Of a stretch of DNA of 62,762 nt, positions 1-6,375 are shown in pieces. A program made the position numbers and the translations under genes. The stretch covers positions 1 to 62,762 of IMG/VR virus record IMGVR_UViG_3300020370_000005; one strand, written 5' to 3'. The notes under the pieces were generated by a model, which saw only the letters and a list, made by a program, of their open reading frames with translations, ran no database searches and was not told where the DNA came from. This DNA is from a virus. Position 1 is the first letter of the stretch. Each line of letters starts with the position of its first letter.

Positions 1-512
1 TACTTGTGTCTGCTCCAACAACAAGAATACTATGGAATATGCTCACACATACTGATATTAGGTCATGGTTATATTCAGAGCAATATAACATTATGCACAT
101 AACATCTAAGCATGGTGCTGTTATCAATGGTAAGAAAGTTGGTAGAGAAGAGTTCTTCAAGACACTAACATTGTGGGGTAAAGATGATACTAAGAAGGTT
201 GTAATCTTCCACTATTCGATATTATCAGAAGGGATAAATGTTCCAGGTTTAACTCATTCAGTTATGCTTAGAAACCTTCCTACTATTGAAATGGCACAAA
301 CCATAGGTAGAGTTATCAGAATACATGAGAAGGATAAAGTGTCAATGAAAGAGGGAACAATTCCTGCTGGTCAGTATAACTTATATCATAAGAAATTTGG
401 TCAAATTGTGGTTCCTATGACTGGTAAGTATGGTCAGAGAATAGCAAAGAGACTTCAGTCTGTAGTCTCATATATCTTTATAGAGGGAATACCACCGAGA
501 GCATACTGCTAG
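1..512 (+). CDS. SF2 DNA helicase, C-terminal part (cut by window edge)
   Basis: The reading frame is open from the first bases, so the gene begins upstream; the GTG at position 6 is probably an internal valine. Visible are a motif-V-like stretch (SEGINVPGL) and a motif-VI-like stretch (QTIGRVIR, with its arginine finger), which mark RecA-like domain 2 of a superfamily 2 helicase of the UvsW/type III restriction group. Such enzymes use ATP to unwind or anneal branched DNA in phage replication and recombination. The tail after motif VI is longer than I recall for T4 UvsW and is basic, so I do not call it uvsW. It is followed directly by a promoter cassette, so it ends its transcription unit. 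Confidence 0.8.
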   Translation, partial: LVSAPTTRILWNMLTHTDIRSWLYSEQYNIMHITSKHGAVINGKKVGREEFFKTLTLWGKDDTKKVVIFHYSILSEGINVPGLTHSVMLRNLPTIEMAQTIGRVIRIHEKDKVSMKEGTIPAGQYNLYHKKFGQIVVPMTGKYGQRIAKRLQSVVSYIFIEGIPPRAYC

Positions 513-550
513 TGTGACAGTATTACAAAGTGTCCACTCATTGCCCCATT
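513..550 (+). repeat. Intergenic direct repeat, copy 1 (partner 1271-1307)
   Basis: TGTGACAG, then AACAAAGTGTCCACTCATT or a close variant, then CCCCATT recurs almost unchanged 758 bp downstream, in each case just after a stop codon and just before a promoter -10 element. Both copies form the upstream half of a promoter cassette. The identity is higher than between the other cassettes, suggesting a recent duplication of this regulatory segment. Confidence 0.8.
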
Positions 551-579
551 ATCCCCAAAATCGGTTATATTAGGTACAT
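531..579 (+). promoter_or_regulatory. Composite phage promoter, copy A
   Basis: TGTCCAC at 531, CCCC at 544-547 and TATATT at 566-571 followed by AGGTACAT. The order and spacing match five other intergenic copies in 1.2-4.3 kb. There is no TTGACA-like -35; the CCCC block lies at about -34. Transcription would start near 578-580, exactly where the structured leader begins. Confidence 0.65.
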
Positions 580-713
580 GGGAACGAAAACGAGGCATTT
601 TTAAATGCTCATCCCTGAGAACTGAGTTAGTACCTGACCTTGCAGTCAGGTGAAGCACCTCTTGACCAGTTCAGACATCTGAGATTTGGATGTAAGACCT
701 CGTTTTTGTTCTC
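580..713 (+). ncRNA. Structured 5' leader or small RNA closed by a 16-bp stem
   Basis: Bases 580-595 pair with 698-713 in a continuous 16-bp helix that includes two G-U wobbles. Inside are a 7-bp hairpin (632-638 with 645-651, loop CTTGCA), CTCA-tccc-TGAG at 608-619, a short CATT/AATG hairpin at 596-607, and TCAG/CTGA at 671-682 flanked by CCA/TGG. The result is a multibranched fold beginning at the predicted +1 of promoter A. It resembles no riboswitch or tRNA known to me; I looked for glutamine-riboswitch core sequences and did not find them. It could be an independent RNA or a leader controlling the gene at 783. Confidence 0.55.
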
Positions 714-782
714 TCACCCTAAAAGAGTATTATGAGTGCAACTTGGACAGTAATTCCATGGTCAATTCTTAAAGACCTGACA

Positions 783-959
783 ATGAGTTATCGTGAGTTG
801 CGTGATGCTTTAAACAGACTGGATGATGAACACTTAAATCAGACAGTCACACTCTACTCACTTCAGGATGATGAATTCGTTCCTGCCATTATGACAGACT
901 ATACGGATGAAACCACTCTTGAACACCTTGACCCAGATCACCTCGTTATTACTTTTTGA
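783..959 (+). CDS. Small conserved phage protein of the 'YRELRDAL' type (unknown function)
   Basis: A 58-aa acidic protein. Its start MSYRELRDAL, followed by a DEHLNQTVTLY strand, a DEFVPA segment and a hydrophobic C-terminus (LVITF), resembles a family of short phage proteins that I remember as beginning at the equivalent methionine; that is why I place the start at 783. An in-frame ATG at 732, preceded by AAAGAG, would add 17 residues and is a fair alternative. It is the first gene behind promoter A and the structured leader, and the next gene begins one base after its stop. No function is known to me. Confidence 0.6.
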   Translation: MSYRELRDALNRLDDEHLNQTVTLYSLQDDEFVPAIMTDYTDETTLEHLDPDHLVITF

Positions 960-960
960 A

Positions 961-1275
961 ATGATCTATTCACAAAAAGCAAACCCAAATGCAACTGACT
1001 CTGAGTTGGATGCTAAAAGGATAGTATATCCTGATTATAGAGGGATACCCGATTGTGATCTTGCAGTATCATTAACTGAGGATCAAATCAGTACCATTCT
1101 TTATGTCCTTGAAGGATATATGCAAGGTAATGATGATGATGAACTTGTTCAAGAAATGGATGAGATCTTTGAGAAATTAGAAACAGTTGTGGACAATCAC
1201 CATGATAGGTTAGAGGATTTATGTAAGGATATAAAGGATATACCATATAATGAATTTGATGACCCATTGATGTGA
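961..1275 (+). CDS. Hypothetical acidic protein
   Basis: A 104-aa acidic, probably mostly helical protein. The ATG at 961 lies one base after the stop of the preceding gene, which suggests translational coupling. An upstream in-frame ATG at 907 would overlap the earlier gene by 53 bases and is less likely. The middle (LTEDQISTILYVLEGYM) reads as an amphipathic helix and the segment after it is rich in Asp and Glu. I recognise no domain. The stop is followed directly by the second copy of the intergenic repeat and promoter B. Confidence 0.65.
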   Translation: MIYSQKANPNATDSELDAKRIVYPDYRGIPDCDLAVSLTEDQISTILYVLEGYMQGNDDDELVQEMDEIFEKLETVVDNHHDRLEDLCKDIKDIPYNEFDDPLM

Positions 1276-1307
1276 CAGTTCAACAAAGTGTCCACTCATT
1301 CCCCATT
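1271..1307 (+). repeat. Intergenic direct repeat, copy 2 (partner 513-550)
   Basis: Matches 513-550 except for a few substitutions and one deleted base before CCCC. Like copy 1 it starts at the stop codon of the upstream gene and carries the TGTCCAC element of the following promoter. Confidence 0.8.
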
Positions 1308-1339
1308 TGGGGTATTTGAGTGGTTATAATAGGTACATA
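1289..1339 (+). promoter_or_regulatory. Composite phage promoter, copy B
   Basis: TGTCCAC at 1289, CCCC at 1301-1304, TATAAT at 1325-1330 and then AGGTACATAC. The distance from TGTC to TATAAT is 36 bases start to start, as in copies C to F. It drives the genes at 1360 and 1608 with a short, unstructured leader. Confidence 0.7.
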
Positions 1340-1359
1340 CCAAACAAATCCTTCTCACT

Positions 1360-1608
1360 ATGGACAAAACTTCAAAGATAATGCAAAGAATACTACAGGT
1401 TGAAAACTTTCAGAATGTTGCCTGTGTATGTGCTAACTGGGCAGAATTCGTTCAGGAGTTAGCAGAGTGGGGTGTTGACGGATGTGCTAAAATCGATTTT
1501 GATGATCCTGAATTAGACATCCCAACACTTGATAAGTTTATGGTATCTGAAAATGGATACGAAAGAACTGGTGACGACTGGAACCTCATTTATGGGGGTG
1601 CAGTATAA
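1360..1608 (+). CDS. Hypothetical protein
   Basis: An 82-aa acidic protein with two Cys in the N-terminal third (ACVCANW) and one further on. The start codon is preceded directly by CCTTCTCACT and lacks a Shine-Dalgarno sequence; the same motif precedes the starts at 2010 and 4320. The next gene overlaps its stop by one base (TAATG), so the two are probably co-translated. Family unknown to me. Confidence 0.65.
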   Translation: MDKTSKIMQRILQVENFQNVACVCANWAEFVQELAEWGVDGCAKIDFDDPELDIPTLDKFMVSENGYERTGDDWNLIYGGAV

Positions 1609-1871
1609 TGAACAGTCTTAAAGAGTTTGTTGACTATGTTGCTTCATTCTACCTACCTAGTCACCCTGAAGTGTTATACCCTATACAGGGATTAACAGAA
1701 AGGAGAATTTATGATGCTTTCTACGTTTATAAGCATAGACTGTTGAAAGCGGCAAATAATCCTGATAACAATTTTACATGGGGTTATGGTGACAGTTTAG
1801 ATAGAGAGCGAGTCAGAGACATCTTACTAGAGACACCATGGGAGGACGATCTATTAGAGGACAGTTTTTAA
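1608..1871 (+). CDS. Hypothetical protein
   Basis: An 87-aa protein with mixed charge, aromatic-rich in its first half (FVDYVASFYLP) and acidic at the C-terminus. It starts inside the stop of the gene at 1360 (TAATG) and its own stop is followed within five bases by the upstream element of promoter C. This gives a two-gene operon bounded by two promoter cassettes. No domain recognised. Confidence 0.65.
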   Translation: MNSLKEFVDYVASFYLPSHPEVLYPIQGLTERRIYDAFYVYKHRLLKAANNPDNNFTWGYGDSLDRERVRDILLETPWEDDLLEDSF

Positions 1872-1873
1872 AC

Positions 1874-1924
1874 TGTCACATAGATTCCCCAAATGTATCT
1901 CTGACCTCTTATAATAAGTACATA
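1874..1924 (+). promoter_or_regulatory. Composite phage promoter, copy C
   Basis: TGTCAC at 1874-1879, TTCCCCAAA around 1885-1893 and TATAAT at 1910-1915 followed by AAGTACATAC. The three blocks and their spacing are the same as in copies D and E. Confidence 0.75.
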
Positions 1925-1976
1925 CAGGGCAAGGATCTATGGTTGTCTCTGTTCAGCAGAGAAATTACGTCCTGTA
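1923..1976 (+). ncRNA. Structured 5' leader closed by TACAGG/CCTGTA
   Basis: TACAGG (1923-1928) pairs with CCTGTA (1971-1976), and inside it TCTCTG (1946-1951) pairs with CAGAGA (1957-1962) around the loop TTCAG. The closing stem starts 8 bases after the -10 of promoter C, that is at the expected transcript end. The region from 1977 to the ATG at 2010 is unstructured and ends in TTCTTCTCACC. Confidence 0.5.
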
Positions 1977-2009
1977 AGACCCACCCTATTCACTTCAATT
2001 CTTCTCACC

Positions 2010-2273
2010 ATGACACTTCCAAATTTAACTTCACTACAATGGGATGAACTCATTGAGCAGTATGTTGATCTATGTGTTGATAGCATGGATTTCAGATCTA
2101 TGGAAGAGTTTGTACGTCAGACTCTAACACAAGATTTTGAGGAAATTCAATCTAGGCATGAGTTATGTGAAGAGATCAGACTTTCATTTGATGATGAAAC
2201 ATTAAATGACTTGCTTGATAATGTCACTAACCCGACTGTCCTTGACACTAACAACACTGGAGGCAAATTCTGA
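2010..2273 (+). CDS. Hypothetical acidic protein
   Basis: An 87-aa protein, strongly acidic and probably helical throughout (for example EFVRQTLTQDFEEIQSR). The ATG follows TTCTTCTCACC with no Shine-Dalgarno sequence. The next gene starts within its stop (TGATG), so translation is probably coupled. It is the first gene of the operon behind promoter C and its structured leader. No family recognised. Confidence 0.65.
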   Translation: MTLPNLTSLQWDELIEQYVDLCVDSMDFRSMEEFVRQTLTQDFEEIQSRHELCEEIRLSFDDETLNDLLDNVTNPTVLDTNNTGGKF

Positions 2274-2461
2274 TGTCAGTTATCACTTCACAACTTGACC
2301 AACTATCAGAAGTATTGGAAGACTTCTGCACTAAGCATAACCTAGAGTTGCATAGTGCTGACGATATTCTCTACGGTGCTTATGATAATGAGTTAACCGA
2401 TTATCAGAAAGATTGGTTGAGAAATTATATCTCAATCTGGGATACCATTGCAAACCTTTAA
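2273..2461 (+). CDS. Hypothetical protein
   Basis: A 62-aa protein that begins in the TGATG overlap with the gene at 2010. The N-terminal part (LDQLSEVLEDFCTKHNLEL) looks helical, followed by a YDNELTDYQKDWLRNYI segment typical of small helix-turn-helix-sized folds, though I see no recognisable DNA-binding motif. Function unknown. Confidence 0.6.
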   Translation: MSVITSQLDQLSEVLEDFCTKHNLELHSADDILYGAYDNELTDYQKDWLRNYISIWDTIANL

Positions 2462-2474
2462 ATTCGATTTTATT

Positions 2475-2735
2475 ATGCACGATTCAACCCTAGATCTTTT
2501 CTGTAATCACGATTCTGAAATCGTTGTTGACACTTTTAGTGATGTGCTTGACGATAGTCAGCATATGATTGAGACCATGCAAGAGACTCTTTATCATGCT
2601 ATGGAAAAATGTGCTAATGATGGAAGACCTGATGATGCTGTGAGCATTTATGATGAGTGGATAGTTGATGGTATAGAACCAGAAGACGGTCACGAATTTC
2701 AATTTTTAGAAGACCTCACAGACTATGCGGAATAA
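2475..2735 (+). CDS. Hypothetical acidic protein
   Basis: An 86-aa, very acidic protein starting at the ATG 13 bases after the previous stop. The frame is open back to a TTG at 2448, but that would overlap the upstream gene and is not preferred. The body alternates helices (MIETMQETLYHAMEKC) with acidic loops; the high Asp/Glu content could suggest a DNA mimic, but this is only a guess. A GC hairpin overlaps its stop codon. Confidence 0.6.
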   Translation: MHDSTLDLFCNHDSEIVVDTFSDVLDDSQHMIETMQETLYHAMEKCANDGRPDDAVSIYDEWIVDGIEPEDGHEFQFLEDLTDYAE

Positions 2736-2750
2736 CTCCGCACTTTAATT
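2727..2750 (+). terminator. Weak terminator-like hairpin
   Basis: GCGGA (2727-2731) pairs with TCCGC (2737-2741) around ATAAC, and the region after it is T-rich but interrupted (ACTTTAATTT). The stem contains the stop codon of the preceding gene. It may slow or end transcription of the operon from promoter C; at five pairs the signal is modest. Confidence 0.35.
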
Positions 2751-2828
2751 TCTGGCATTGACCATTGTGGGGTTATCCTACTAAGAGCAGTCATGTAAGT
2801 CCAGTTTGTTCCATTCATTCTTATTATT

Positions 2829-2942
2829 ATGTCACCTAATTTTGCCGAGTTCCTTTTGGACAGTGCTGACAATGGAAACGAGATCCTAGCGGTGCTTGAT
2901 GACATTGTTGAAGTAGTAGAAACAGGAGGAACTGATTTATAA
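2829..2942 (+). CDS. Very small conserved-type phage protein
   Basis: A 37-aa protein reading FAEFLLDSADNGNEIL then VLDDIVE. It resembles short helical proteins I remember from cyanophage genomes, where a residue pattern like 'N/D-G-x-E-I/L' joins two helices. The ATG is preceded by CCATTCATTCTTATTATT without a Shine-Dalgarno sequence, a leader shared in part with the gene at 3997. The preceding bases 2736-2828 carry no other gene. Function unknown. Confidence 0.5.
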   Translation: MSPNFAEFLLDSADNGNEILAVLDDIVEVVETGGTDL

Positions 2943-2960
2943 GTTGAATTAGAACAGCAG

Positions 2961-3011
2961 TCAAGCGATCTTGTGCCAGTGTGAGAAGTGGTATAAGGTC
3001 GCTTGATTTTT
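2961..3011 (+). terminator. Long hairpin with U-tract: terminator, possibly a small RNA
   Basis: TCAAGCGATC (2961-2970) pairs with GGTCGCTTGA (2997-3006) in ten pairs with one G-U, followed by five T. This fits an intrinsic terminator for the gene at 2829. The 26-base loop is unusually long and contains GTGAGAAG (2981-2988), the exact reverse complement of the CTTCTCAC motif found immediately before three start codons in this region. The RNA could therefore be a 3'-UTR-derived small RNA. The -35 of promoter G overlaps the end of the stem. Confidence 0.6.
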
Positions 3012-3040
3012 GCCCCATTTTATGCGATACTAGGTACATA
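3003..3040 (+). promoter_or_regulatory. Promoter G (variant of the composite cassette)
   Basis: GATACT (3026-3031) followed by AGGTACATA matches the downstream half of the other cassettes. Here the upstream part differs: TTGATT at 3003-3008 gives a sigma70-like -35 with 17-base spacing, and the CCCC block (3014-3017) is closer to the -10. It would drive the gene at 3067. Confidence 0.5.
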
Positions 3041-3066
3041 ATCAAACATTATTCAATTTTTATATT

Positions 3067-3228
3067 ATGCGTTATTCAGTTCACTGCCCTTCTGCCCCTT
3101 ATGAGAATTCCTCATTTGTTAACCTTGACGATTGTTGGGGTTTATGCCTAGACCTATCCGAAGAGTACGGATATGCTGAGGTTCGCTACGGTGCTTGCTT
3201 CATGGGTTCTTACACTAATGGACAGTAA
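3067..3228 (+). CDS. Hypothetical small protein
   Basis: A 53-aa protein with four Cys spread over its length and many aromatic residues (for example DDCWGLCLDL and YGYAEVRYGACF). The start ATG follows an AT-rich leader (TTTTTATATT) without Shine-Dalgarno. It is bracketed by promoter G upstream and promoter D downstream, so it is a single-gene unit. The Cys arrangement is not a zinc-finger pattern I know. Confidence 0.55.
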   Translation: MRYSVHCPSAPYENSSFVNLDDCWGLCLDLSEEYGYAEVRYGACFMGSYTNGQ

Positions 3229-3234
3229 GCAAAC

Positions 3235-3286
3235 TGTCACTCGAATTCCCTAGAGTGACCATTTTCACTCTATAATAAGTACATAC
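3235..3286 (+). promoter_or_regulatory. Composite phage promoter, copy D
   Basis: TGTCAC at 3235-3240, TTCCCT at the CCCC position (3248-3251) and TATAATAAGTACATAC at 3271-3286. Spacing equals copies C and E. Confidence 0.75.
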
Positions 3287-3301
3287 ACAAAGAGGTTTCC
3301 C

Positions 3302-3520
3302 ATGCTCGCTTCATTACATTTTGGAAGACACTTCTGGTTAGATGAGGATCAAGAATTCTGCTCTTGCCCAACATTCAAAGATGGTACACCTGATTTAGAT
3401 CAGTGGGATTACGTTTCAGAGTGGACTGACCTTGAGGGATTAAACCTTGACAAACTGCTCTACATTCACAGAGATCTTATTGTGAGTGATGCGGTCAACT
3501 ATTATGAGGCAAGGGTGTGA
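3302..3520 (+). CDS. Hypothetical protein
   Basis: A 72-aa acidic protein with two Cys (FCSC) and a Trp-rich middle (DQWDYVSEWTDLEGL). A plausible Shine-Dalgarno (AGAGG) lies about eight bases before the ATG, unlike several neighbours. The stop overlaps the GTG start of the next gene (GTGTGA). No family recognised. Confidence 0.6.
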   Translation: MLASLHFGRHFWLDEDQEFCSCPTFKDGTPDLDQWDYVSEWTDLEGLNLDKLLYIHRDLIVSDAVNYYEARV

Positions 3521-3711
3521 GATTCGCAGATTTGAAACCAGTTGACAGATATACAAGATCTGGACACTATGGGAAATTTATCACTTGCCCATCTTGTTAC
3601 TCTGTTCAACGTGTACATCATTTTGCGTGGTCTGCTCTCGGTTGCCAGTCCTGTAAAAAGATGATAAGCAAAAATCTCTGGAGAATACATGGAAATGGGA
3701 CACCTTATTAA
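3517..3711 (+). CDS. Zinc-ribbon protein
   Basis: A 64-aa protein with C24-x2-C27 and C43-x2-C46, a four-cysteine zinc ribbon, embedded in the pattern GKFITCPSC then VHHFAWSALGCQSCKK. Similar short zinc-ribbon proteins occur in cyanophages as far as I remember; their role is unknown, though nucleic-acid or RNA-polymerase contact is common for the fold. The GTG start overlaps the preceding stop by four bases, which argues for coupled translation. Its stop is followed directly by promoter E. Confidence 0.7.
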   Translation: MRFADLKPVDRYTRSGHYGKFITCPSCYSVQRVHHFAWSALGCQSCKKMISKNLWRIHGNGTPY

Positions 3712-3712
3712 G

Positions 3713-3763
3713 TGTCACATCGAATCCCCAAACTGCCCCATCACCCATTATAATAAGTACATA
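3713..3763 (+). promoter_or_regulatory. Composite phage promoter, copy E
   Basis: TGTCAC at 3713-3718, ATCCCCAAA at 3724-3732 and TATAATAAGTACATAC at 3749-3764. This is the closest match to the consensus of all copies. Confidence 0.75.
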
Positions 3764-3777
3764 CACGAAAGGAAATT

Positions 3778-3957
3778 ATGTCAGTTCTACATCACGAAGC
3801 ACTTTACGAAACATGCCATGATGAGGCATTTGAGGAGTATATGCGTATTAGCGGTTTATCAAGTGAGAATTTAGATTCTTACATTAAGGTTAACCCATTC
3901 GTGCTAGACTGGATTGATAATCTAGCATATAAAAAGTTCCAAGATCTCTGCCAGTAG
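3778..3957 (+). CDS. Hypothetical small acidic protein
   Basis: A 59-aa protein starting MSVLHHEALYET and ending KKFQDLCQ. AAAGGAAA just before the ATG is a plausible Shine-Dalgarno sequence, and the gene sits directly behind promoter E. The composition (acidic, helical, single domain) is like the other genes of this cluster. No family recognised. Confidence 0.65.
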   Translation: MSVLHHEALYETCHDEAFEEYMRISGLSSENLDSYIKVNPFVLDWIDNLAYKKFQDLCQ

Positions 3958-3996
3958 AGATCCCCACCAGTAAACCATTCATTCATTTTTTTAATT

Positions 3997-4191
3997 ATGT
4001 CATCTTTAACTTACACCGATTTTCAATCAGTTCTAAACCAGTTACCTTCCTTTATAGAGGATACTGGTGCAGATCTTGATTTTGCATACGACTGGGTTGC
4101 CGATCAGATCGGAGATCCTAGGTTCGCATCTAATGACGCATTATACGATCAGTTCTATCTTGCTTATCAAAATGCTGTGACACTCGATTAA
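3997..4191 (+). CDS. Hypothetical acidic protein
   Basis: A 64-aa protein rich in Asp and aromatic residues (LDFAYDWVADQIGDPRF). The ATG is preceded by CCATTCATTCATTTTTTTAA, similar to the leader of the gene at 2829 and also without a Shine-Dalgarno sequence. It lies 39 bases after the gene at 3778 and is probably cotranscribed from promoter E. Its stop is followed at once by the upstream element of promoter F. Confidence 0.65.
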   Translation: MSSLTYTDFQSVLNQLPSFIEDTGADLDFAYDWVADQIGDPRFASNDALYDQFYLAYQNAVTLD

Positions 4192-4192
4192 G

Positions 4193-4243
4193 TGGCACAC
4201 TAAGCATATACAAGTGCCTCGTATGCACTATAATAAGTATATA
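4193..4243 (+). promoter_or_regulatory. Composite phage promoter, copy F
   Basis: TGGCAC at 4193-4198 and TATAATAAGTATATA at 4229-4243, 36 bases apart start to start as in copies B to E. The CCCC block is missing, so this is the most divergent upstream half. Confidence 0.65.
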
Positions 4244-4294
4244 AGGGATCAAACGGAGTCATGGGTTATGCCTCTCACGTCACCTGATCCCTTA
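4242..4294 (+). ncRNA. Structured 5' leader: long nested hairpin
   Basis: TAAGGGATCA (4242-4251) pairs perfectly over ten bases with TGATCCCTTA (4285-4294). Inside, ACGGAG (4253-4258) pairs with CTC-a-CGT (4274-4280) with one bulged base, and CAT/ATG closes the tip (4260-4270). The helix starts 8 bases after the -10 of promoter F. It is followed by an unstructured stretch ending in CTCTTCTCACT before the ATG. Confidence 0.6.
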
Positions 4295-4319
4295 ACCCAA
4301 ATCATTTACTCTTCTCACT

Positions 4320-4652
4320 ATGCGTAAAATTGAATCTCAAATGAATCGTGCTATCAGAACTCAATCTAACTGGGCGGGTTCTAATACAACTGTATTCACT
4401 GCTGATAACGGTCTACACTCTAAAGTTTTTCTACATGGAAATCATATTGCTACATACTTCCATGTTGAGAGACAGTTACAGATTTTTGACGGCGGTTGGC
4501 AGTCTAATACAACTAAGAGCAGACTGAACGCTCTTTGCTATGAATTCGCCACTGGTGTAAGACTGTTTCAAAAAAACTGGACATGGTATGTGTCACAATT
4601 CTCAGGAAGGACTGAGCAGTTTTTTAACGGTCAAATCTTAGACTGGGCATAA
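4320..4652 (+). CDS. Conserved cyanophage protein of unknown function
   Basis: A 110-aa basic protein. The start MRKIESQMNRAI, the segment DGGWQSNTTKSRLNAL and the closing FQKNWTWYV followed by an FNGQ segment match a family I remember from T4-like (and T7-like) cyanophages. The family has no assigned function. The ATG is preceded by CTTCTCACT rather than a Shine-Dalgarno and sits behind promoter F and the nested hairpin leader. The next gene starts four bases after its stop region. Confidence 0.75.
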   Translation: MRKIESQMNRAIRTQSNWAGSNTTVFTADNGLHSKVFLHGNHIATYFHVERQLQIFDGGWQSNTTKSRLNALCYEFATGVRLFQKNWTWYVSQFSGRTEQFFNGQILDWA

Positions 4653-5131: not shown

Positions 5132-5211
5132 ATCTAGGTGTGTGTTTTATGCCTCTGTAAATGTGTTCAGGTGATGCACCCTTAGCACGTCTACTAAGAA
5201 AAGTCAAGTCA

Positions 5212-5250
5212 CTCCGAACAATCTCCGAGACCCTTGACAATAACTCCGAG
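5212..5250 (+). promoter_or_regulatory. Helically phased CTCCGA(G) direct repeats over promoter P1
   Basis: CTCCGAA at 5212, CTCCGAG at 5223 and CTCCGAG at 5244 are 11 and 21 bases apart, roughly one and two turns of DNA, and they flank the -35 of P1. A related CTCCGAG lies at 5429 and TCCGAGG abuts the -10 of P2. They look like operator sites on one face of the helix; no regulator is identified here. Confidence 0.45.
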
Positions 5251-5263
5251 GTCGTGGTATAAT
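5234..5263 (+). promoter_or_regulatory. Consensus sigma70 promoter P1
   Basis: TTGACA (5234-5239), an 18-base spacer and TATAAT (5258-5263), both hexamers exact. Start of transcription would be near 5270, at the ATG of the following gene. Confidence 0.8.
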
Positions 5264-5268
5264 GAACC

Positions 5269-5529
5269 ATGAGAGGGGTTCAGAAAAATCCTATCTACCA
5301 ACAGTTGCCAATGCTTTATACAATCTATGATGACAAGGAAATTCTGAGGGGTACATTCGAATCTATCTACGATTTGGAGAGGTACATTGACGGCATCCGC
5401 ATTGAACGTGGAGAACAGTTTCCCAACACTCCGAGGAGTTCACCGTTTGACTATGTGAAGAGCATCGGATGGTACTGGGAAATTGCCGACAATCATGGGG
5501 TTGACAACCTCACGGCATCCGAGGTATAA
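5269..5529 (+). CDS. Hypothetical protein, possibly translated from a leaderless mRNA
   Basis: An 86-aa protein with a segment YTIYDDKEILRGTF then LERYIDGIRIERG, suggesting a small alpha/beta domain; family unknown to me. The ATG at 5269 lies six bases after the -10 of P1, so the mRNA would start at or next to the start codon. An alternative is the ATG at 5311 (MLYTIYDD), which gives a leader of about 40 bases but has no Shine-Dalgarno either. A second consensus promoter overlaps the 3' end of the gene. Confidence 0.55.
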   Translation: MRGVQKNPIYQQLPMLYTIYDDKEILRGTFESIYDLERYIDGIRIERGEQFPNTPRSSPFDYVKSIGWYWEIADNHGVDNLTASEV

Positions 5530-5530
5530 T
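5501..5530 (+). promoter_or_regulatory. Consensus sigma70 promoter P2
   Basis: TTGACA (5501-5506), an 18-base spacer and TATAAT (5525-5530), both exact, with TCCGAGG touching the -10. It lies inside the last codons of the upstream gene and would transcribe the oxygenase at 5758 with a leader of about 220 bases. Confidence 0.8.
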
Positions 5531-5757
5531 AGAGACATGAACGAGGTCAGCACTATGTAACAACAATTGCCTACAGATTACATGCACTAAGTTATAACAA
5601 CTGTGACAGTGCTAAGTGTTAACGAGGACAGTTAAATTGCCCCCGTTAAATATTAAAAACGGCCACTACCCTAACCTACAAAGGTTCCCCAGAGCGATTG
5701 CTATATTATTCCAATAAAGTTTTCCACAGGTATTAAAAAATTTTTAAAAATTAAAAA
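5531..5757 (+). promoter_or_regulatory. Long leader of the oxygenase gene
   Basis: 227 bases without a convincing gene; there is only a seven-codon frame at 5538. Visible are ACTG-tga-CAGT near 5600, two similar blocks (GCACTAAGTT and GTGCTAAGTG) with AAC following, and CCGTT/AACGG around an AT loop near 5643-5663. The last 30 bases are nearly pure A and T and contain no Shine-Dalgarno. It may be regulatory; no known riboswitch recognised. Confidence 0.35.
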
Positions 5758-6375
5758 ATGGCACATTTAGTTTATTGGACATTTTCTGAGATACCTTCAG
5801 AGATGGTTGAGATTTTGGTTAAGGATTTAAAGAAATATGATGAGTCGATAAAAGAATCACGAGTAAATGAACCAGAAAATGCTGAGGGTGTTCGCAAAAG
5901 TAGTAATGCGTGGATTGATGGCAGTAATTGGATAGGTGGATTCGTATGGCATTATATTATGAGAGCAAATCGTGAGAATTTCATGTATGACATAGAAGGT
6001 ATTGATACTAATGAAATACAATATACAGAATATCAAAAGGGCGAGTATTATGATTGGCATATTGATGATAATATAGGCAGATGTATGATAAATGATAGGG
6101 TATTAACTAGTGCCGATAATCATGGAGAAAGTATAGCAATACTTAACGGTGAATATATAAGAAAGTTATCATTTTCAATTCAACTTTCAGATCCAGAAGA
6201 TTATGAAGGTGGGGAATTGGAATTTAAAGTAGGTAAGGAGGAATCTTTTTTTGCCCCAAATAAAAAAGGTACTGTAATTATATTTGATTCGAGAACTTTA
6301 CATAGGGTACGTGAAGTTAAATCTGGTGTTCGGAAAAGTTTAGTTGGATGGGTTGTTGGTCCAAGGTGGAAATAG
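5758..6375 (+). CDS. 2OG-Fe(II) oxygenase (PKHD-type prolyl hydroxylase-like)
   Basis: A 205-aa protein. The iron triad is H101-x-D103 (in YYDWHIDD) and H182 (in TLHRVREV), and R192 (in GVRKSLVGW) would bind 2-oxoglutarate. The barrel segments (KLSFSIQLSDPEDYEGGEL, and GTVIIFDSRTLHRV) are typical of the PKHD hydroxylase group, and the length fits a single catalytic domain. Such enzymes hydroxylate protein or other side chains with O2; the substrate here is unknown. They are frequent in T4-like cyanophages. It is driven by P2, which lies at the end of the previous gene. Confidence 0.88.
   Translation: MAHLVYWTFSEIPSEMVEILVKDLKKYDESIKESRVNEPENAEGVRKSSNAWIDGSNWIGGFVWHYIMRANRENFMYDIEGIDTNEIQYTEYQKGEYYDWHIDDNIGRCMINDRVLTSADNHGESIAILNGEYIRKLSFSIQLSDPEDYEGGELEFKVGKEESFFAPNKKGTVIIFDSRTLHRVREVKSGVRKSLVGWVVGPRWK

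Follow-up and report, generated by a model that had tools for sequence, protein, structure and literature searches.

Structured leaders at early promoters of a T4-like cyanophage point to a larger modular family of 5'-terminal RNAs

We analysed a 62.8-kb window of viral DNA (positions 1 to 62,762 of the IMG/VR record IMGVR_UViG_3300020370_000005). A sequence-only reading had proposed that three early transcripts in this window, from promoters A, C and F, begin inside a closing stem placed at the predicted +1. Two of these three leaders (A and F) are real, and they point to a larger modular family of 5'-terminal cyanophage RNAs, in which a helix of variable sequence encloses short conserved modules. 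The window itself is a fragment of a T4-like cyanophage near the Prochlorococcus phage P-SSM7 (T4-like, Kyanoviridae); its first 8 kb match P-SSM7 with 89% identity over 57%. The region that we studied is made up of small open reading frames (ORFs) in series on the + strand, and the promoter and leader elements located below in this region are also on that strand. Throughout, +1 is predicted from the position of the -10 element and lies about 7 nucleotides (nt) after it.

The early promoters share the motif TATAATARGTACATA, which is present (with up to 2 mismatches) at seven sites in the window: 566, 1325, 1910, 3026, 3271, 3749, and 4229. Promoters A, C, and F correspond to the sites at 566 (-10 element TATATT at 566-571, 2 mismatches to the motif), 1910 (TATAAT at 1910-1915), and 4229 (TATAAT at 4229-4234). 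For each leader, we tested the best helix whose first base lies 5-11 nt past the -10 element against 400 dinucleotide shuffles. In leader A, 580-595 and 698-713 form 16 uninterrupted pairs (two of them G-U), starting at the ninth base after the -10 element (P = 0.0025), and the whole leader has a folding energy of -50.9 kcal/mol (z = -4.8). In leader F, 4242-4251 and 4285-4294 form 10 pairs, starting at the eighth base (P = 0.0175; whole fold -20.5 kcal/mol, z = -3.2), and complementary variants of both strands are found in relatives. These two stems are as originally described. By the same test, the leaders of the promoters at 1325, 3026, 3271, and 3749 have no helix at +1 (P = 0.8-1.0); the first of these (-10 element at 1325-1330) is a sister promoter that served as our comparison for a leader without a structured insert. 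We also considered whether leader A encodes a leader peptide (ATG at 578), but we dropped this reading as it is not conserved in relatives.

The third proposed stem, in leader C, did not hold up. The pairing of 1923-1928 with 1971-1976 can be read from the sequence, extends to 8 pairs, and starts at the eighth base after the -10 element, but it is at chance level (P = 0.20). This stem can form in just 2 of 69 distinct copies of a conserved module that we call M3, because its 3' strand (CCUGUA) overlaps, and so clashes with, a conserved M3 helix (AGGA/UCCU). The minimum-energy fold of leader C (-17.8 kcal/mol, z = -0.9) lacks the proposed stem and has GGG/CCC plus AGGAU/GUCCU in its place. Leader C is M3 (52 nt, 1929-1980) with an outer stem of only 3 base pairs (GGG at 1927-1929 with CCC at 1980-1982). 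A structured RNA does sit at the right place, without the proposed closing stem. Relative to the predicted +1, leaders A and F and structured leaders of relatives have a helix that starts within a few nt of the 5' end, and leader C does not.

The pattern of M3 (GCAAGGATCTATGGTTGTC...GAAATTACGTCCTGTAAGTC) occurs in 117 IMG/VR stretches, and plain blastn finds M3 in P-SSM2, P-SSM5, and several viruses from marine single cells. Across the copies, the apical stem is 99.4% paired, versus 86.7% if shuffled (maximum of 91.6% in 2000 shuffles), and in P2, an A-T pair becomes G-C in three copies. For the outer P1, pairing exceeds the shuffled level only modestly (55.7% versus 45.1%), and the argument for M3 therefore relies on P2, P3, and context.

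In relatives, leaders of this promoter family are often unstructured and A-rich, and a minority carry structured inserts with a shared starting point, opening with a closing helix (P1) of variable sequence no more than about 2 nt from the predicted +1. Among 99 distinct promoters, from loci that were fetched by protein homology only, nine strong helices (scoring at least 24) begin 4-11 nt past the -10 element, versus a background of about 0.7 per 4-nt bin elsewhere between -44 and +88. Across all 313 promoters, there are 22 such helices versus a background of about 3, but this set is biased, as it includes loci that were fetched by module. For another module, M4, a -10 element can be recognised for 20 copies, and in 19 of these P1 starts 5-7 nt after it. 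Loose scans for -10 hexamers (519 sites; nearly all of P-SSM2) showed little or no enrichment at +1, because the majority of these hexamers do not belong to promoters; the enrichment is confined to the extended promoter family. The distance from the end of P1 to the ATG has a median of 24.5 nt (n = 34), which places the ribosome site outside of the helix. In 13 of 39 leaders, there are 5 or more T within 8 nt soon after P1. One class of P1 (GGGAAACAAA...TTTGTTTCTC, or GGGAAAC-type) closes 37 distinct leaders, whose interiors range from a plain 36-nt hairpin (in L268) through single modules to as much as 166 nt of nested structure. P1 at +1 is the constant part, and its cargo varies.

Covariation in related phages had been named as a test of these stems, and we found that the closing helices at +1 both recur and covary. 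The family sampled best, M4, shows strong covariation. Across 19 distinct sequences, 95.9% of cells are paired, versus 65.7% if the sequences are shuffled (standard deviation 2.0), and the covariation score is 0.825, versus 0.230 for shuffled sequences (standard deviation 0.026) and 0.09-0.12 for slid frames. The shuffles ignore relatedness; the slid frames retain it, and they agree. In each of the 10 P1 pairs of M4, both partners have changed, and pair 15-31, an inner one, occurs as CG, AU, and UA. Among the 23 variants of M1, none departs from standard pairing at the first two inner pairs. For M5, there are three versions of P1 in four contexts. Cross-pairing tests of the flanks of M1 and M3 gave weak results, in part because many of the copies share the same P1. 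M1, M3, and M4 each have a conserved core inside covarying helices, which is the type of conservation seen in riboswitches.

Comparing the inserts to each other, we found pairs of strands that recur, with variable sequence between and around them. Leader A has the order P1-M0-M1-M2-hairpin. Its M0 consists of GGCA at 594-597, the putative 5' strand by comparison to 2754-2757 and to copies of M3, and TGTAAGACC at 691-699, which matches the M0 pattern (GGCA...TGTAAG[TA]CC). M1 has CATCCCTGAGA at 610-620 and TCAGACATCTG at 671-681; it occurs in 44 IMG/VR stretches, and its inner pairs covary. M2 has TTAGTACCTG at 627-636 and CAGGTGAAGCACCTCTTGA at 647-665, and is also carried by P-SSM2 and AG-345-F15. 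Leader F has the order P1-M5, with M5 (ACGGAGTCATGGGTTATGCCTCTCACGTCACC) at 4253-4284; M5 is found in 6 viral stretches (4 distinct contexts). M4 (TGCTNACATT...GCTNAGGGATACC) fits 81 stretches by pattern, of which many are chance matches in coding sequence. Further modules, M6 to M15, were seen in P-SSM2 and its relatives. Modules also nest: M3 is found within M2, within M8 that is itself within M2 (L251), within M6, and within the A-type P1 of P-SSM5. Because we scanned with exact core patterns, conservation of the core letters is partly built in, and the evidence for the modules is the positions outside of the patterns and the copies that were fetched by blastn or by protein.

The carriers whose taxonomy is given are all Kyanoviridae. 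The exact M3 pattern had no match in 84,980 prokaryote genomes, and we take the single match to M1 in those genomes (L351) to be due to chance, as its flanks are not complementary. Rfam had no match in the window at the gathering threshold, and nothing relevant in the carriers at E ≤ 1 or in 500-4400 at E ≤ 5. In the literature that we searched, we did not find a description of these leader elements. In P-SSM2, the core modules all lie close together, within about 1 kb (55.8-56.9 kb), so the copies per genome can be few. At about 56.64-56.83 kb of P-SSM2 (L234, 3640-3830) there is a larger unannotated region of structured RNA, where M6 (GGTTCAGGTGTAAGCGATTCCC) lies inside a TTGAGAGA/TCTCTCAA stem that is followed by a T-run; this region is 75-100% covered in P-SSM5 and in single-cell relatives. 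Within our window, 5168-5180 (CAGGTGATGCACC) is similar to the 3' strand of M2 (CAGGTGAAGCACC) and is possibly another, diverged copy.

The inserts are discrete units, which close relatives may have or lack at orthologous promoters. At the P-SSM7 orthologs of promoters C and F, ...GTACATA is followed by CCAAACAAATCC or ACAAACAAATC and then by TTCTCAC-ATG, and the structured insert is missing. The window also contains a fourth structured leader, which the sequence-only reading had not mentioned. It lies at 2752-2804, upstream of the gene at 2829, is 97.8% identical in P-SSM7, and combines a CTGG/CCAG stem with M0 (GGCA and TGTAAGTCC) and M8 (TGTGGGGTTATCCTACTAAGA). In a relative (L017), the same CTGG/CCAG stem before the counterpart of gene 2829 contains M3. 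Across phages, gene 2829 is preceded by M8+M0, M3+M0, M6, M2+M6, M3+M2+M0, or others, and the F gene is preceded by M5, M1, an M0-type module, or an unstructured leader. Module identity does not track the gene, which fits a generic rather than a gene-specific role. An aptamer would be tied to a functional class of genes, but before the F gene and gene 2829, the module varies or is missing.

We tentatively favor, at a little short of an even chance, the view that these 5'-terminal leaders shield early cyanophage mRNA from host decay of the RNase E/J type, with the modules adding structure or binding protein. Our data establish the pairings, their covariation, the phasing to the predicted +1, and the modularity and swapping, and from these we infer the actual transcription starts, the protection from decay, and the role of the modules. 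Transcription would start about 7 nt after the -10 element, and the 5' strand of P1 would follow 0-2 nt later. The partner strand comes about 35-170 nt downstream, followed by a linker of about 25 nt with the ribosome site. Inside P1 are interchangeable internal-loop modules, stacked or nested (P1-M0-M1-M2 in A; P1-M5 in F; M3 with a very short P1 in C). The buried 5' end would slow decay that initiates at the end, whether by the 5'-sensing mode of RNase E, by the 5'-3' exonuclease RNase J, or by a pyrophosphohydrolase, so that short early messages would last longer in an RNase-rich host. The modules might tighten the fold or bring in a protein. Cyanobacteria have both RNase E and RNase J (PMC10989914), and according to works cited in PMC3997798, 5'-terminal stem-loops stabilise mRNA in E. 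coli. Infection by P-SSP7, a Prochlorococcus podovirus, raises host RNase E, and antisense RNAs are thought to shield phage transcripts (PMC9692554). Terminal stems would give a phage a further means of sparing its own messages.

A putative role as stabilisers or caps had been suggested for the stems from the start, and this interpretation is partly supported. The plain 36-nt hairpin in L268 and the free ribosome site both fit an end-protecting stem. Several observations weigh against this role. The conserved loops of M1, M3, M4, and M5 exceed what a cap needs; modules are also found away from +1, in tandem or within other RNAs; in leader C, the first 4-5 nt would be unpaired and the outer stem is weak (the supported stem starts at 1927); and, as the leaders at most promoters in the family are unstructured, protection is not a general requirement.

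End protection alone leaves the conserved loops unexplained, and the main rival is that the modules bind a protein of the phage or of the host, perhaps RNA polymerase in the manner of put-type antiterminator RNAs, with P1 only presenting the site early in the nascent transcript. The put sites of phage HK022 are RNA structures with which its early transcripts open, and the modules have the same position (relative to the predicted starts) as well as conserved internal loops with covarying flanks. We nevertheless consider protein binding to be unlikely, as several unrelated cores share the position and substitute for each other before the same gene, and the module-free hairpin of L268 occurs at the same place. 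The unrelated cores also argue against a single antiterminator family: put is one family that acts on terminators. It is improbable that the leaders are processed off as stable small RNAs, such as decoys for host RNases, tRNA-cutting toxins, or regulators. The nested structures are rod-like, M3 is nearly identical across phage genera, and modules also occur in longer non-coding stretches, all of which would suit such RNAs, but the leaders are nearly always directly upstream of a small ORF and at a set distance.

We also doubt, to much the same degree, that the modules are the metabolite aptamers of uncatalogued riboswitches. They do have compact conserved cores within covarying helices of 5' leaders, and cyanophages carry Rfam RNAs such as wcaG, manA, and glnA (PMC2864571; PMC9964418). 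However, no Rfam riboswitch matches them, the ribosome site is outside of P1, and 26 of 39 leaders have no T-run after P1. Riboswitch action is further disfavored because modules swap before the same gene, which can have different modules or none. Finally, inserts that come and go at orthologous promoters of close relatives, are common to distant phages, and nest in each other could be mobile or neutral hairpins without function. This is very unlikely, as the compensatory changes show selection on the RNA fold and the insertions are phased to +1.

These leaders resemble several known systems. As in ompA and papA of E. coli and the aprE leader of B. subtilis, the helix is within a few nt of the 5' end and the ribosome site is outside of it. 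Those are single hairpins of individual genes, whereas the cyanophage helix closes over exchangeable conserved modules and recurs at many promoters, and its stabilising effect is presumed. The wcaG, manA, PhotoRC-II, and glnA / Downstream-peptide RNAs of Rfam are likewise structured 5' leaders in T4-like cyanophages, but these models do not match here even at permissive thresholds, and the modules here nest and swap between genes. We know of no described counterpart to leaders that are built from a combinatorial kit of modules. The Xrn1-resistant RNAs of RNA viruses (PMC10520033) may be analogous, as viral RNA structures with the potential to halt 5'-3' decay, but the enzyme that they block is eukaryotic, the viruses are different ones, and the structures usually lie in 3' regions.

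We also note some other features of the window. About 35 nt before the -10 elements, at 513-537 and also ahead of the promoters at 1325, 1910, 3271, 3749, and 4229, there is a TG[TG]C[AC]C box, which is frequently one arm of a TGTGACA...TGTCACA dyad. Across 90 distinct promoters, 56 occurrences of the box fall in a single bin (-40 to -31), and in a control stretch, 3 promoters have one. The box resembles an operator or activator site for the early promoter family. Two perfect matches to the sigma-70 consensus (TTGACA-18-TATAAT) are at 5234-5263 and 5501-5530; the early promoters differ from these and have no -35 element. The non-coding sequence at 5584-5761, directly upstream of the ORF at 5758, is about 77-86% conserved in many cyanomyovirus records.

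It is possible, and we propose this with somewhat less confidence than end protection, that cyanophages build leaders from a combinatorial kit: short internal-loop modules would be nested in a variable helix at +1 and recombined between promoters and genera, and selection would maintain the kit rather than any one RNA family. If our interpretation is right, then abundant ocean phages hold swappable RNA parts that decide what becomes of their first messages, and their hosts are ones in which RNase E rises during infection by at least one phage. These leaders would then bring in several RNA motifs missing from Rfam, the natural swaps of modules before the same gene would serve as ready-made experiments, and protection of the 5' end as a strategy of phages could be put to a direct test.

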